44,915 nucleotides of DNA from NCBI GenBank assembly GCA_002842465.1, contig PHDA01000021.1, positions 1-44,915 on the forward strand, given 5' to 3'. The stretch is from Bacteroidetes bacterium HGW-Bacteroidetes-7. GTDB taxonomy: Bacteria > Bacteroidota > Bacteroidia > Bacteroidales > UBA932. The notes under the pieces were generated by a model, which was given only the letters and a program-made list of their open reading frames with translations, was not told where the DNA came from and did no database searches. This document shows, piece after piece, positions 37,044 to 44,915 of this stretch. Positions within the stretch are counted from its first letter, which is position 1, and each line of letters starts with the position of its first letter. Made by a program: the position numbers and the translations under genes.

Positions 37044-38222
37044 TTAAATTCCGAGCTTTTTTCTAATAACGTCAGGTATTGAGTTTTTGTGCACCATAAC
37101 TGAGATAGTCTTAGCCTTAACAAAACTTTCTGACATATTGAGGTAACCACCGAATTTGTTTCTCTCTGTTCCCCATGAATTCTTGGTAATGTAGTACTTA
37201 TTACCGTTCTGATCCTTTACAATGCCTGTTAGCAACATCAGATGATCATCTGTTGTAGTAAAATTCTCATAACCCTTTTGTCTGATCTCCTGAGTAACCA
37301 TAACTTCAGGATAAATGCTCTTGAATTTGTAGATCTCGGCATATTTATCTTCGGGGGCCAATTTTTCAAAACGAGCTCTGTCTTCGCCAAGATATCCTGA
37401 CAAATCTTGGATCTCAGGATTGATTGCGACACCGTTTGAATGTGAAAAGCCCTTCTCGCTGACATCACCATCCCAACAAACTGTGTATCCCTTTGTGAGG
37501 GCATTGTCAATGATTACCATCAGTTCATCAAGTGGTACATTATAGAACTTCTCATAGTCCCAATTATCAGGAACCTCTATGACCGATTTTTTATAAAACG
37601 GTATGTGTGTAAAGCTTGTAATCTCTACGTAGTCATCCATATTCAAACCCAAAGAGTTTGCAAATGAAACAGGAGTGTACTGTTTGCCTTTGAAATCAAA
37701 TTTTTCTGGCAACGGGCCCAGATATATGTCCATCAATGAGTTTACAAGTTTGTAGTATTCAGGACTTCTGTGCTTTAATTCAACTGCCGCTCCTGAAATA
37801 ACATTAACAAATTTGTTAAGCTCTTTGTGGTTGTTTAGCAGTGAGTTGTAATTAATACCATTATAAACCTCCTGTGGAACAACGCCATATTCCTTTACAA
37901 TGTTTGTGAACATATGAGCAAGACTACCCTGGCCAAGATTCCCATTTCCTCTTCTAAGGTAGTTGTCTTCCATTCTTTTGAGGTAATTTATCCTCACAAC
38001 AAACATTTCAGATAGGTCAAATTCGCCCTTACCGGTTCTGAGCAGTTCTGACTCAATAAAAGCTGCAGTGGCATAACTCCAGCAAGTTCCGCTGCTGGCC
38101 TGATTTTTTACCGGGGTTGCTGCATTTCTTACCACATCTGTAAAGATGTAGCCCTGTGCACTAACCGATAATGTAAATGCAAGCAAAATCAGGATTAGTG
38201 TTGTTTTGAGTGAATTCTTCAT
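37044..38222 (-). CDS. Secreted C1B cysteine peptidase (PepC/bleomycin hydrolase-like), copy 2
   Basis: A 392-residue papain-like peptidase. A signal peptide (1-23, ending SVSAQ) shows that it is exported, unlike the cytosolic PepC of lactic acid bacteria. The catalytic triad is visible: C47 in SSGTCWSY, H327 in TTDDHLM and N348 in KNSWG. The C1B insertions typical of bleomycin hydrolase are present. The C-terminus KLGI is a free end as used for self-limited aminopeptidase activity in this family. It lies 20 bases downstream of a close paralogue, with which it forms an operon. Confidence 0.92.
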   Translation of the reverse strand: MKNSLKTTLILILLAFTLSVSAQGYIFTDVVRNAATPVKNQASSGTCWSYATAAFIESELLRTGKGEFDLSEMFVVRINYLKRMEDNYLRRGNGNLGQGSLAHMFTNIVKEYGVVPQEVYNGINYNSLLNNHKELNKFVNVISGAAVELKHRSPEYYKLVNSLMDIYLGPLPEKFDFKGKQYTPVSFANSLGLNMDDYVEITSFTHIPFYKKSVIEVPDNWDYEKFYNVPLDELMVIIDNALTKGYTVCWDGDVSEKGFSHSNGVAINPEIQDLSGYLGEDRARFEKLAPEDKYAEIYKFKSIYPEVMVTQEIRQKGYENFTTTDDHLMLLTGIVKDQNGNKYYITKNSWGTERNKFGGYLNMSESFVKAKTISVMVHKNSIPDVIRKKLGI

Positions 38223-38242
38223 AGTTGTTTATAAATGAGTAA

Positions 38243-39436
38243 TTATTTTATTCCAAGTTTTGCTTTTATTTGAGCAGGAATTGAGTTTTTATGAACTACG
38301 ATATTCATTGTTTTGTATCTGGCAAATGTTTCAGAAACATACCATACACCTTTATAATCACCGGTTTCACCCCATGAATTTTTTACAATATAGTATTTGT
38401 TTCCCTTCTGATCTTTTGCAATACCATAAATGTGCATTCCGTGATCGTCTGTTGTCTGACCATTGTCAAATGCAATTTGACGAATCTCCTGAGTAATCTT
38501 TTTCTCGGGAACAACCTGCTCAAGACTGAATATTTTTGCATCAAGCTCATTTCTGGGAACTCCAAGCCATCTCTCCTGATCAGAGCCTGACATGTTTGCA
38601 ACTTCGGTCTCAGGCACAAAAGCAATTCCTTTACGAGTAAAACCTTTTTCACTTACATCAGAAGCCCATAGAACTGTGTATCCCTTTTCTATGGCGTGGT
38701 CAAATATCATCATCAACTCATCAATTGGCAAGTTGAAAGAGCGGTCCCACCTCCAGTTGTCAGGGATTTCAAGGGCAAATTCCGAGTAAAAGGGGTGGTG
38801 TGTATATGATGTAAGAGATACATAATCATCAGAAGCAATACCAAGTTCTGTCGCAAAACTTTTTGGAGTATATTCTTTTCCGTTATAAGTGAATTTCTGA
38901 GGAACCTCTCCCAGGTATGCATTAAGGATACCTTTAAAGCCCTCTTTCCAGGCGGGAGTATATTTACCGTTTGGATTTTTGACAAGAGCCTTTACATAGC
39001 CCGAAAGTGCAGCGTCAAACTCATTATGAATATGGTTTTTTTCGCCATAATTGAGCCCCGGCATAACTTCATCCGGAACAATCCCGTAATTTTTCCATAC
39101 AGCAAGAACATCTCCAAATGAACTTCCCGGAGCAAAATTTATATTGCCAGACGTTCTTATGTACTTGTCAGCCTTGTCGTAATATGCATTTGACACTATG
39201 AACATTTCAGAAAGGTCGTGAGTGCCTTTGCCTGTTCTTATAAGCTCTGACTCAAGAAAAGAGAGGGCAGAAAAACTCCAGCATGTACTTGTTCTGTTCT
39301 GATTTTTAATGCTTGTAACAGGGTGTTCCTTTACTACAGTAAATTTGTAACCCTCTTTTAAAGAGTTATTTTCCTGACTGAAAGAGGATACAGTTAAAAA
39401 CGAAAGCAGTATTAAAACCGCAGCGAATCTTTTCAT
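38243..39436 (-). CDS. Secreted C1B cysteine peptidase (PepC/bleomycin hydrolase-like), copy 1
   Basis: A 397-residue papain-like peptidase with a signal peptide (1-20, ending SSFSQ). The triad is C52 in TSTCWSF, H332 in TTDDHGM and N353 in KNSWG. Sequence and domain order match the downstream copy at 37044-38222, so this is a tandem duplication. The two differ mainly in mid-region loops. As the first gene it has its own -7 box (39462-39469). Likely function is trimming of peptides in the periplasm or outside the cell, which fits an amino-acid- or peptide-using lifestyle (inference), as does the M28 peptidase at 7768-9363. Confidence 0.92.
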   Translation of the reverse strand: MKRFAAVLILLSFLTVSSFSQENNSLKEGYKFTVVKEHPVTSIKNQNRTSTCWSFSALSFLESELIRTGKGTHDLSEMFIVSNAYYDKADKYIRTSGNINFAPGSSFGDVLAVWKNYGIVPDEVMPGLNYGEKNHIHNEFDAALSGYVKALVKNPNGKYTPAWKEGFKGILNAYLGEVPQKFTYNGKEYTPKSFATELGIASDDYVSLTSYTHHPFYSEFALEIPDNWRWDRSFNLPIDELMMIFDHAIEKGYTVLWASDVSEKGFTRKGIAFVPETEVANMSGSDQERWLGVPRNELDAKIFSLEQVVPEKKITQEIRQIAFDNGQTTDDHGMHIYGIAKDQKGNKYYIVKNSWGETGDYKGVWYVSETFARYKTMNIVVHKNSIPAQIKAKLGIK

Positions 39437-44614: not shown

Positions 44615-44688
44615 GGTTCGGTAGCTCAGTTGGATAGAGCAACAGCCTTCTAAGCTGTGGGTCTTGGGTTCGAATCCCAACCGAATCA
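44615..44688 (+). tRNA. tRNA-Arg (anticodon TCT)
   Basis: A complete cloverleaf: acceptor stem GGTTCGG pairing with CCGAATC (one G-U pair), D arm GCTC/GAGC, anticodon stem ACAGC/GCTGT with loop CTTCTAA giving anticodon TCT (reads AGA/AGG), and T arm TTGGG/CCCAA with loop TTCGAAT. The discriminator base is A and CCA is not encoded. The downstream sequence holds a terminator and phased repeats typical of an integration junction, so this gene may be the attachment site of a mobile element. Confidence 0.97.
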
Positions 44689-44723
44689 CTAAAAATGTCC
44701 AAAAAACCGGACAAAAGCCAGAC

Positions 44724-44760
44724 AAAACCTACAATATCAAGTGATTGTAGGTTTTTTTAT
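44724..44760 (+). terminator. Rho-independent terminator after tRNA-Arg
   Basis: A 12-bp perfect stem (arms 44724-44735 and 44744-44755) with an 8-base loop is followed by further T residues to about 44758. It lies 36 bases after the tRNA. Because the stem begins with AAAA it could also terminate transcription from the other strand. Confidence 0.85.
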
Positions 44761-44823
44761 TTTCAATTTGTCTGGTATATTAGTCAAAAAATGGTCATAT
44801 TTGGACACTTTTCCGTGACTAAA

Positions 44824-44859
44824 TCGTGACCTATTTTAAAAATACAAAACAGGTCACGA
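44824..44859. repeat. 9-bp inverted repeat in the post-tRNA region
   Basis: TCGTGACCT (44824-44832) and AGGTCACGA (44851-44859) are perfect inverted copies separated by 18 AT-rich bases. A third related half-site, CGTGAC, is at 44814-44819. It suits binding of a dimeric protein such as an integrase or regulator and has no T-run that would make it a terminator. Confidence 0.7.
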
Positions 44860-44915
44860 ATTGTCACCTTTTGTCTACCTTTTGTCGCGTTTTGTCTAGG
44901 GTGCATATATCTAAA

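Follow-up and report, generated by a model that had tools for sequence, protein, structure and literature searches.

A repeat-rich leader after tRNA-Arg(TCT) as the probable left end of a CTnDOT-type conjugative element in Bacteroidales

The DNA stretch analyzed here (44,915 nucleotides, hereafter the window) ends 226 bases after a tRNA-Arg(TCT) gene (44615..44689, + strand, identified by ARAGORN), and the question it raises is whether these last, gene-free bases (the leader; 44690..44915, + strand) are the left end of an element integrated in the tRNA gene and, if they are, what kind of element it is and how its end is built. The original prediction, made from the raw sequence, had placed a boundary of an integrative element at this tRNA, with a possibly new element beyond the window and a gene-free stretch of 227 bases after the tRNA; the stretch is borne out, with its length corrected to 226 bases. 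The window is the entire contig C28 of a 42-contig, 2.39 Mb genome (G000) and the contig stops at 44915, so that other contigs have to carry the element. The explanation that we put forward is that the window very probably ends inside attL and the integrase-side arm of a CTnDOT-type ICE, about 70 kb long by comparison with the related genome G018, that is inserted in the 3' end of tRNA-Arg(TCT).

The target gene, its core repeat and its empty sites

Left of the site lies a chromosomal undecaprenyl-phosphate translocase-like gene (PF04018; 43673..44572, + strand), which a comparison of gene order places immediately 5' of tRNA-Arg(TCT) in relatives as well; the named relatives found via this tRNA-adjacent gene are mostly Bacteroidales metagenome genomes. 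Elsewhere in the window (37044-39436) are two adjacent papain/bleomycin-hydrolase-type peptidases (PF03051 and PF00112) of 392 and 397 aa, perhaps a tandem duplication.

The original prediction had proposed that a second copy of the tRNA 3' end be sought further on and that the site be compared with relatives without the insert, and both checks came out in its favor. The last 14 bases of the tRNA gene, CCCAACCGAATCAC (44676..44689, + strand), are the attL core and are repeated at the far end, which lies on contig C16 in the own genome (C16:12824-12837) and, in G018 and G010, 72.4 and 30.8 kb downstream, respectively. The far copy is followed by AAAG in all three genomes (C16:12824-12841; G018 213004-213021; G010 1354712-1354729) and, on C16, by the native flank of the tRNA. 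With core ends at 140623 and 213017 in G018 and at 1385540 and 1354716 in G010, the core-to-core elements measure 72,394 and 30,824 bases, respectively; a pattern search with CCCAACCGAATCAC found no second core copy in G004. The core pattern was matched at all in 11 of the 15 genus genomes searched with it, and in seven of the 15 the native flank directly follows the tRNA (the tRNA being cut by a contig end in G007). The left flank from the window and the right flank from C16 adjoin each other at the core in G001, G019, G016, the genome of locus L029 and G007, where only 67 bases of left flank precede the contig end, and the right-flank alignments at these empty sites cover 204-303 bases at 72-78%. 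Genes to the right of attR are mostly not shared among the empty relatives (three are common to G007 and G011, and some to G001, G007, G019 and G016) and no gene there has a match in the attR flanks of G000, G018 or G010, so the proof of an empty site rests on nucleotide alignment.

Several further features of the site were observed. In loci L026, L028, L030 and L034 the native flank after the tRNA has repeated units, CCCCCACCAGGGAACGCCGA...GGCAATCC, whose number varies among relatives. The core itself varies between hosts, as the T-stem of the G004 tRNA-Arg (L041 19300-19374) reads CAAGG...CCTTCC in place of CTTGG...CCAACC, with the changes paired across the stem. G018 has, on contig C20 near 219020 (L044 3880-4802), a second joint of the right end, a core variant CCCAACCGAGTCGC and a leader, with no whole tRNA, followed by a gene that starts like the DUF6088 gene of the first element and a neighbor like its AbiEii-type gene; judged by its sequence, this joint is a tandem array or a remnant at the same site. 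A different insertion is found at the same tRNA-Arg in G001 (L118 867-5773, C16), with an exact 53-base tRNA repeat 4.9 kb on, and in G013 (C32, L071) and G022 (C8, L077) the right end is of yet another type and has an integrase of its own no more than about 1.5 kb away. The tRNA-Arg gene appears to be a hotspot used by three or more kinds of element.

The integrase, the transfer genes and the type of element

Among 60 genomes searched with the 226 bases, the own genome included, nine have matches to the leader. The whole leader is present in G004 and in G010 with one base changed in each, and in G018 at 92% identity; the match in G022 stops with its contig after 61 bases, and four other genomes match partly. 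In G004 and G018 the leader extends 44 bases past the end point of the window and then enters the start of a tyrosine integrase gene, 270 bases after the tRNA (+271). These integrases (403 or 408 residues; L041 17818-19029 and L043 1394-2620) match the arm-binding (PF17293), SAM-like (PF13102) and catalytic (PF00589) domains. In what we take to be their active site, the first arginine is missing (TGLSYIDV) and HxxR, LGH and the tyrosine are kept, so that by domains and residues both appear to fit the IntCTnDOT subgroup. The boundary predicted at tRNA-Arg(TCT) is thus upheld by the core repeat, by the empty sites and by the leader running into an integrase in relatives. It could still be argued that an ordinary intergenic region with chance repeats happens to lie beside a tRNA at a contig end, as the window takes in a complete contig and stops with it and AT-rich DNA yields some repeats; we consider this highly improbable, because a different sequence follows the tRNA in the empty relatives, the leader enters an integrase and a second copy of the core exists.

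The integrase expected close to the leader was thus found in G004 and G018, and neither in the own assembly nor in G010. The own genome has no close integrase in its assembly, the best match (E 1.2e-10) being a distant one on C41. The gene would fall in an assembly gap, from where C28 ends to where C39 begins, that corresponds to 140850-144027 of G018, where the integrase is located. Two integrases of the own genome were considered as the missing one and rejected: that on C41 (411 aa) is distant (28% identity), that on C2 (450 aa) is not among the three G000 matches, and the upstream DNA is different in both. Both genes are near contig starts and are followed by small and replication-type genes (L013 677-6428 on C2; L014 3935-9314 on C41); these loci are perhaps other mobile elements, that on C2 perhaps a prophage.

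In G010 there is no PF00589 match between the att sites. Its leader joins, at the region of the integrase start codon, a mannosyltransferase-like gene (L039 19217-19300; G010 C1 near 1385250), and the 1150 bases next to the joint have a 99.9% identical counterpart deep within contig C18 of G004, where the mannosyltransferase-like frame is longer. Read from this arrangement, G010 apparently has an element that is without its integrase and has kept both ends. A decayed or non-autonomous island of this kind, with no integrase of its own, might also be present in G000, given that G010 combines a leader and attR with a shortened gene in place of the integrase and that the G000 assembly has only the distant match on C41. 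We regard this as unlikely, since the DNA that flanks the integrase-bearing piece of G018 is retained on either side in G000, as the leader (94%, tRNA included) and as the beginning of C39 (95%), since further transfer genes are found in G000 and since draft assemblies commonly lose pieces of such a size (3.2 kb) where contigs end.

Between its cores, G018 has genes for MobC, a relaxase, a coupling protein, a ParA-like protein, a TraG ATPase, TraJ, TraM and DUF4138, so that the relaxase, coupling protein and mating-pore genes by which an ICE is recognized all lie between the att sites. Its cargo includes a type I restriction-modification set as well as lipid-type and other genes. An MMPL exporter, a ketoacyl-ACP synthase III, a patatin, a class I/II aminotransferase and a short-chain dehydrogenase in this cargo (L050 12710-18958; L051 1624-3639) look like a lipid pathway carried by the element. 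That the element lies beyond the window is confirmed by matching pieces on C39, C38 and C16 of the own genome, which fall in one order, C28-C39-C38-C16, and cover 43,834 of the 72,394 bases of the G018 element when alignments of at least 150 bases are counted. Contig C38, placed by alignment to G018, has genes for a relaxase (PF03432), a coupling protein, MobC and a ParA-like ATPase. The element is probably self-transferable. A prophage instead of a conjugative element might be suspected from the 52 loci with relatives of the integrase on contigs called viral in IMG/VR, but we give this next to no likelihood: a relaxase, MobC, a coupling protein, TraG, TraJ, TraM and DUF4138 are present in the element, and no capsid, terminase or tail family was found among 44 element proteins scanned against Pfam (four sets of 10 plus four, some of them counterparts between genomes, which represent part of the reading frames).

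Like CTnDOT, the inserted element is a Bacteroidetes ICE with TraG/TraJ/TraM-type transfer genes and with an integrase, in G004 and G018, that has arm-binding, core-binding and catalytic domains and lacks the first catalytic arginine. CTnDOT has less strict targets and is not known to use tRNA genes, whereas the target here is the 3' end of a tRNA-Arg with a 14-base identical core. The IntCTnDOT subgroup of tyrosine recombinases has been described, the integrase of CTnDOT being reported without the first catalytic arginine and that of NBU1, a member of the same subgroup, with it (PMC8138268). NBU1 and MTnPi4 resemble the present element in their target, a tRNA 3' end, and differ in using tRNA-Leu and in being listed as mobilizable elements of Bacteroidetes that have no mating pore of their own (PMC5704250); NBU1 also differs in the retained arginine of its integrase. 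The 10K genomic island of Riemerella anatipestifer is likewise a Bacteroidetes island with a tyrosine integrase, IntN1-like, beside an Arg-tRNA, and its integration and excision have been shown experimentally; it has 10 kb, 12 reading frames and a 53-bp repeat, with no conjugation genes named in the available part of the report (PMC6764341), as opposed to about 70 kb and a 14-base core here. The possible novelty of the element applies to the individual ICE and not to its kind, CTnDOT-type conjugative elements being already known.

Repeats, terminator and module B in the leader

The repeats predicted in the leader, namely two copies of GACAAAA, three of TTTTGTC, two of CGTGAC and a 9-bp inverted repeat, are all found in their predicted places; the three words have the predicted spacing of 10-11 bases and exceed what shuffling gives by chance. 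On the core side, a pattern search located GACAAAA at 44710 and 44721 (44710..44727, + strand; spacing 11), a phased pair of candidate arm-type sites, and GACA occurs at like offsets in related leaders. On the far side, the same search located TTTTGTC at 44869, 44880 and 44890 (spacing 11 and 10). These three copies are the last three of four phased TTGTC words (starts 44861, 44871, 44882 and 44892; 44861..44896, - strand), also candidate sites, which are the core-side GACAA word in opposite orientation. CGTGAC starts at 44814 and 44825 (spacing 11), and the perfect inverted repeat CCAGACAAA/TTTGTCTGG at 44718-44726/44767-44775 is one of 24 inverted pairs listed. The fourth phased TTGTC, a terminator hairpin and an inverted copy of the CGTGAC module were absent from the original prediction. 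Counted from the end of the tRNA, GACAA is found at +21 and +32, the terminator from +35, a single TTGTC at +79, the CGTGAC module (module B) at +121 to +146, its inverted copy at about +157 to +178, and the TTGTC array at +172, +182, +193 and +203.

None of 5000 dinucleotide shuffles reached the five TTTTGTC/GACAAAA words of 44690-44915, and more than two such words occur in only two of the 2235 frames of 226 bases in the window (four and five words), both of which overlap the leader, judging by their counts. Identical 5-mer pairs at spacing 10, 11 or 21 number 12 in the leader, which 0 of 1000 shuffles reach. By a laxer test, any 7-mer at least five times on both strands, 118 of 5000 shuffles do as well and the leader is less striking. 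Between the leaders of the window and of G018, seven differences fall in 93 motif bases versus 11 in 133 other bases, and the motifs are not clearly better kept.

The predicted terminator (44724..44762, + strand) consists of a hairpin (44724-44755; -13 kcal/mol, z -4.7) and a T tail and is borne by the element; at its position the empty sites carry a different hairpin, the native one of the tRNA. GACAAA/TTTGTC is scarce at the right ends of the elements, with 0, 0, 1 and 2 copies in four right ends of 330 bases each, so the sites are not alike on both arms; both ends were then aligned, by which module B was found. This module, TTTCCGTGACTAAATCGTGACCTATT (44810..44835, + strand), has two TGAC boxes 11 bases apart, has an inverted second copy at about 44846..44867 (- strand; also inverted repeat I3) and reappears, as TTTCCATGACCAATTCATGACCTATT (C16:12741-12766), at the right end of the element. 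The similarity between the two ends was reached by 0 of 2000 shuffles for G000 and by 3 of 2000 for G010, and the alignment of the two ends on the reverse strand is weaker (295 and 49 of 2000, respectively). The element of G011 at tRNA-Asp (cores at 749358 and 759303) has a different module of its own at both ends, with 18 of 18 bases identical (ACCTAAACTGTACCCCCT; 0 of 1000 shuffles), and this right-end repeat was predicted before it was looked for.

Leaders of related elements and the proteins that may bind them

Relatives of the integrase were collected from the 52 loci on IMG/VR viral contigs and from 247 genomes of the order, 60 of which had a match at E 1e-60 or better and from which 30 loci were taken; six loci from the genus brought the set to 88. 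Five were too short upstream and two were duplicates, and the other 81 comprise 27 loci with a same-strand upstream tRNA and 54 without. The tRNA (Arg, Asp, Ser, Lys, Gly or Pro) lies 232-359 bases before the integrase in the 27 loci, from which two redundant ones were dropped, leaving 25 leaders for the phasing count.

Identical 5-mer pairs in the 25 leaders number 39, 63 and 23 at spacing 10, 11 and 12, 71 and 16 at spacing 21 and 22, and 18 at spacing 24, where 5.2 to 5.8 are expected and 0 of 200 shuffles reach the count at each peak, spacing 24 included; the leaders are related, and repeats shared by descent are not independent in these counts. Peaks of this kind are absent from the beginning of the integrase gene (4, 4 and 7 at 10, 11 and 12; 9 and 3 at 21 and 22) and from the DNA upstream of the tRNA (5, 10 and 6; 8 and 5), and directly downstream of the integrase smaller ones are seen at 12 and 22 (18 and 13). 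A pure 10.5-base rule does not explain these two or the peak at 24 in the leaders. The 54 loci without a tRNA stand outside this main count, and in the 43 of them that are non-redundant, the peaks at 10, 11 and 21 are 58, 69 and 45 over a higher background of 10.7.

By our grouping, 13 of the 25 leaders have the GACAA word and 12 are without it. The 13 are exactly those with an integrase at least 46.7% identical to that of G004, the other 12 integrases being at most 45.5% identical to it. The peaks at 10 and 11 are present in each group separately and nine of the 12 leaders without GACAA have at least three phased pairs; spacing 21 is confined to the GACAA leaders (two pairs in the other 12) and spacing 22 to the others (11 pairs; 1 of 300 shuffles). 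In core-side offset windows GACA is found in 27/66 versus 2/48 for TGTC, and in far offset windows TGTC in 18/48 versus 1/66 for GACA, the p-values being optimistic as the windows were chosen after inspecting the leaders and only the G018 leader was excluded from the count. A hairpin with a T tail within 120 bases of the tRNA is found in 14 of the 27 leaders versus 2 of 540 shuffles, starting at +35/36 in nine leaders, at +22/24 in four and at +48 in one, by a strict test that misses terminator-like hairpins visible by eye, such as that of G018.

The evenly spaced repeats of the leader most probably serve, as we read their arrangement, as docking sites for the proteins by which the element moves, and we favor assigning GACAA/TTGTC rather than module B to the integrase, because the word follows the integrase clade. 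The reverse assignment, in which the GACAA/TTGTC arrays bind an excision factor (a small winged-helix protein, one per turn) and module B is the arm-type site of the integrase, is plausible but less likely. In phage lambda the sites of the excision factor are on the integrase-side end, which is where most GACAA/TTGTC words are found here, and module B is present at both ends, as is the module of the G011 element. Moreover, RdfS is reported to oligomerize and BldC to bind one per DNA turn (PMC11963761). The presence of GACAA in exactly the 13 leaders of the closer integrases is nevertheless more easily explained by an integrase site, and module B differs between elements whose integrases are about 50% identical.

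Based on the favored assignment, we propose that an IntCTnDOT-like integrase would exchange strands within the 14-base core at the tRNA 3' end, as the repeat suggests, and that the inserted element would restore the tRNA and, through the terminator seen in its sequence, may supply it with a new terminator. The facing, helically phased GACAA and TTGTC arrays would be bound on one face of the helix by the N-terminal arm-binding domain of the integrase, which may bend or fold the leader into a recombination complex, and module B, at both ends, could be a second binding site, for the integrase or an excision factor, that links the right and left arms.

We further suggest, tentatively and with slightly less than even confidence, that the tRNA-using integrases of this group share one att-site layout of which the spacing, and not the sequence, is kept by selection, since the word changes between integrase clades and the one-turn spacing stays. 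In such a layout, for targets in tRNA-Arg, -Asp, -Ser, -Lys, -Gly and -Pro, arm sites would be spaced by one or two turns of the helix and keep near-fixed offsets from the tRNA end of about +12, +22 and +33 and, facing the opposite way, about +174, +185, +195 and +206, with a tRNA terminator supplied by the element between the two arrays and with a module B, specific to each element, that has another copy at the right end.

A suspicion raised by raw sequence has become a mapped ICE end with a target, a core, an empty site and cargo. The element belongs to a known kind of ICE and occupies a tRNA hotspot, and it is a layout common to different targets and words that lifts it above routine. If shared, this layout could make the ends of Bacteroidales elements recognizable by sequence alone, from a tRNA, phased words, a terminator and an integrase within about 230-360 bases, and it predicts, in concrete structural terms, the folding of att sites by the arm-binding integrases of this group. 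The terminator borne by the element, in turn, suggests how a tRNA gene keeps working after the insertion.
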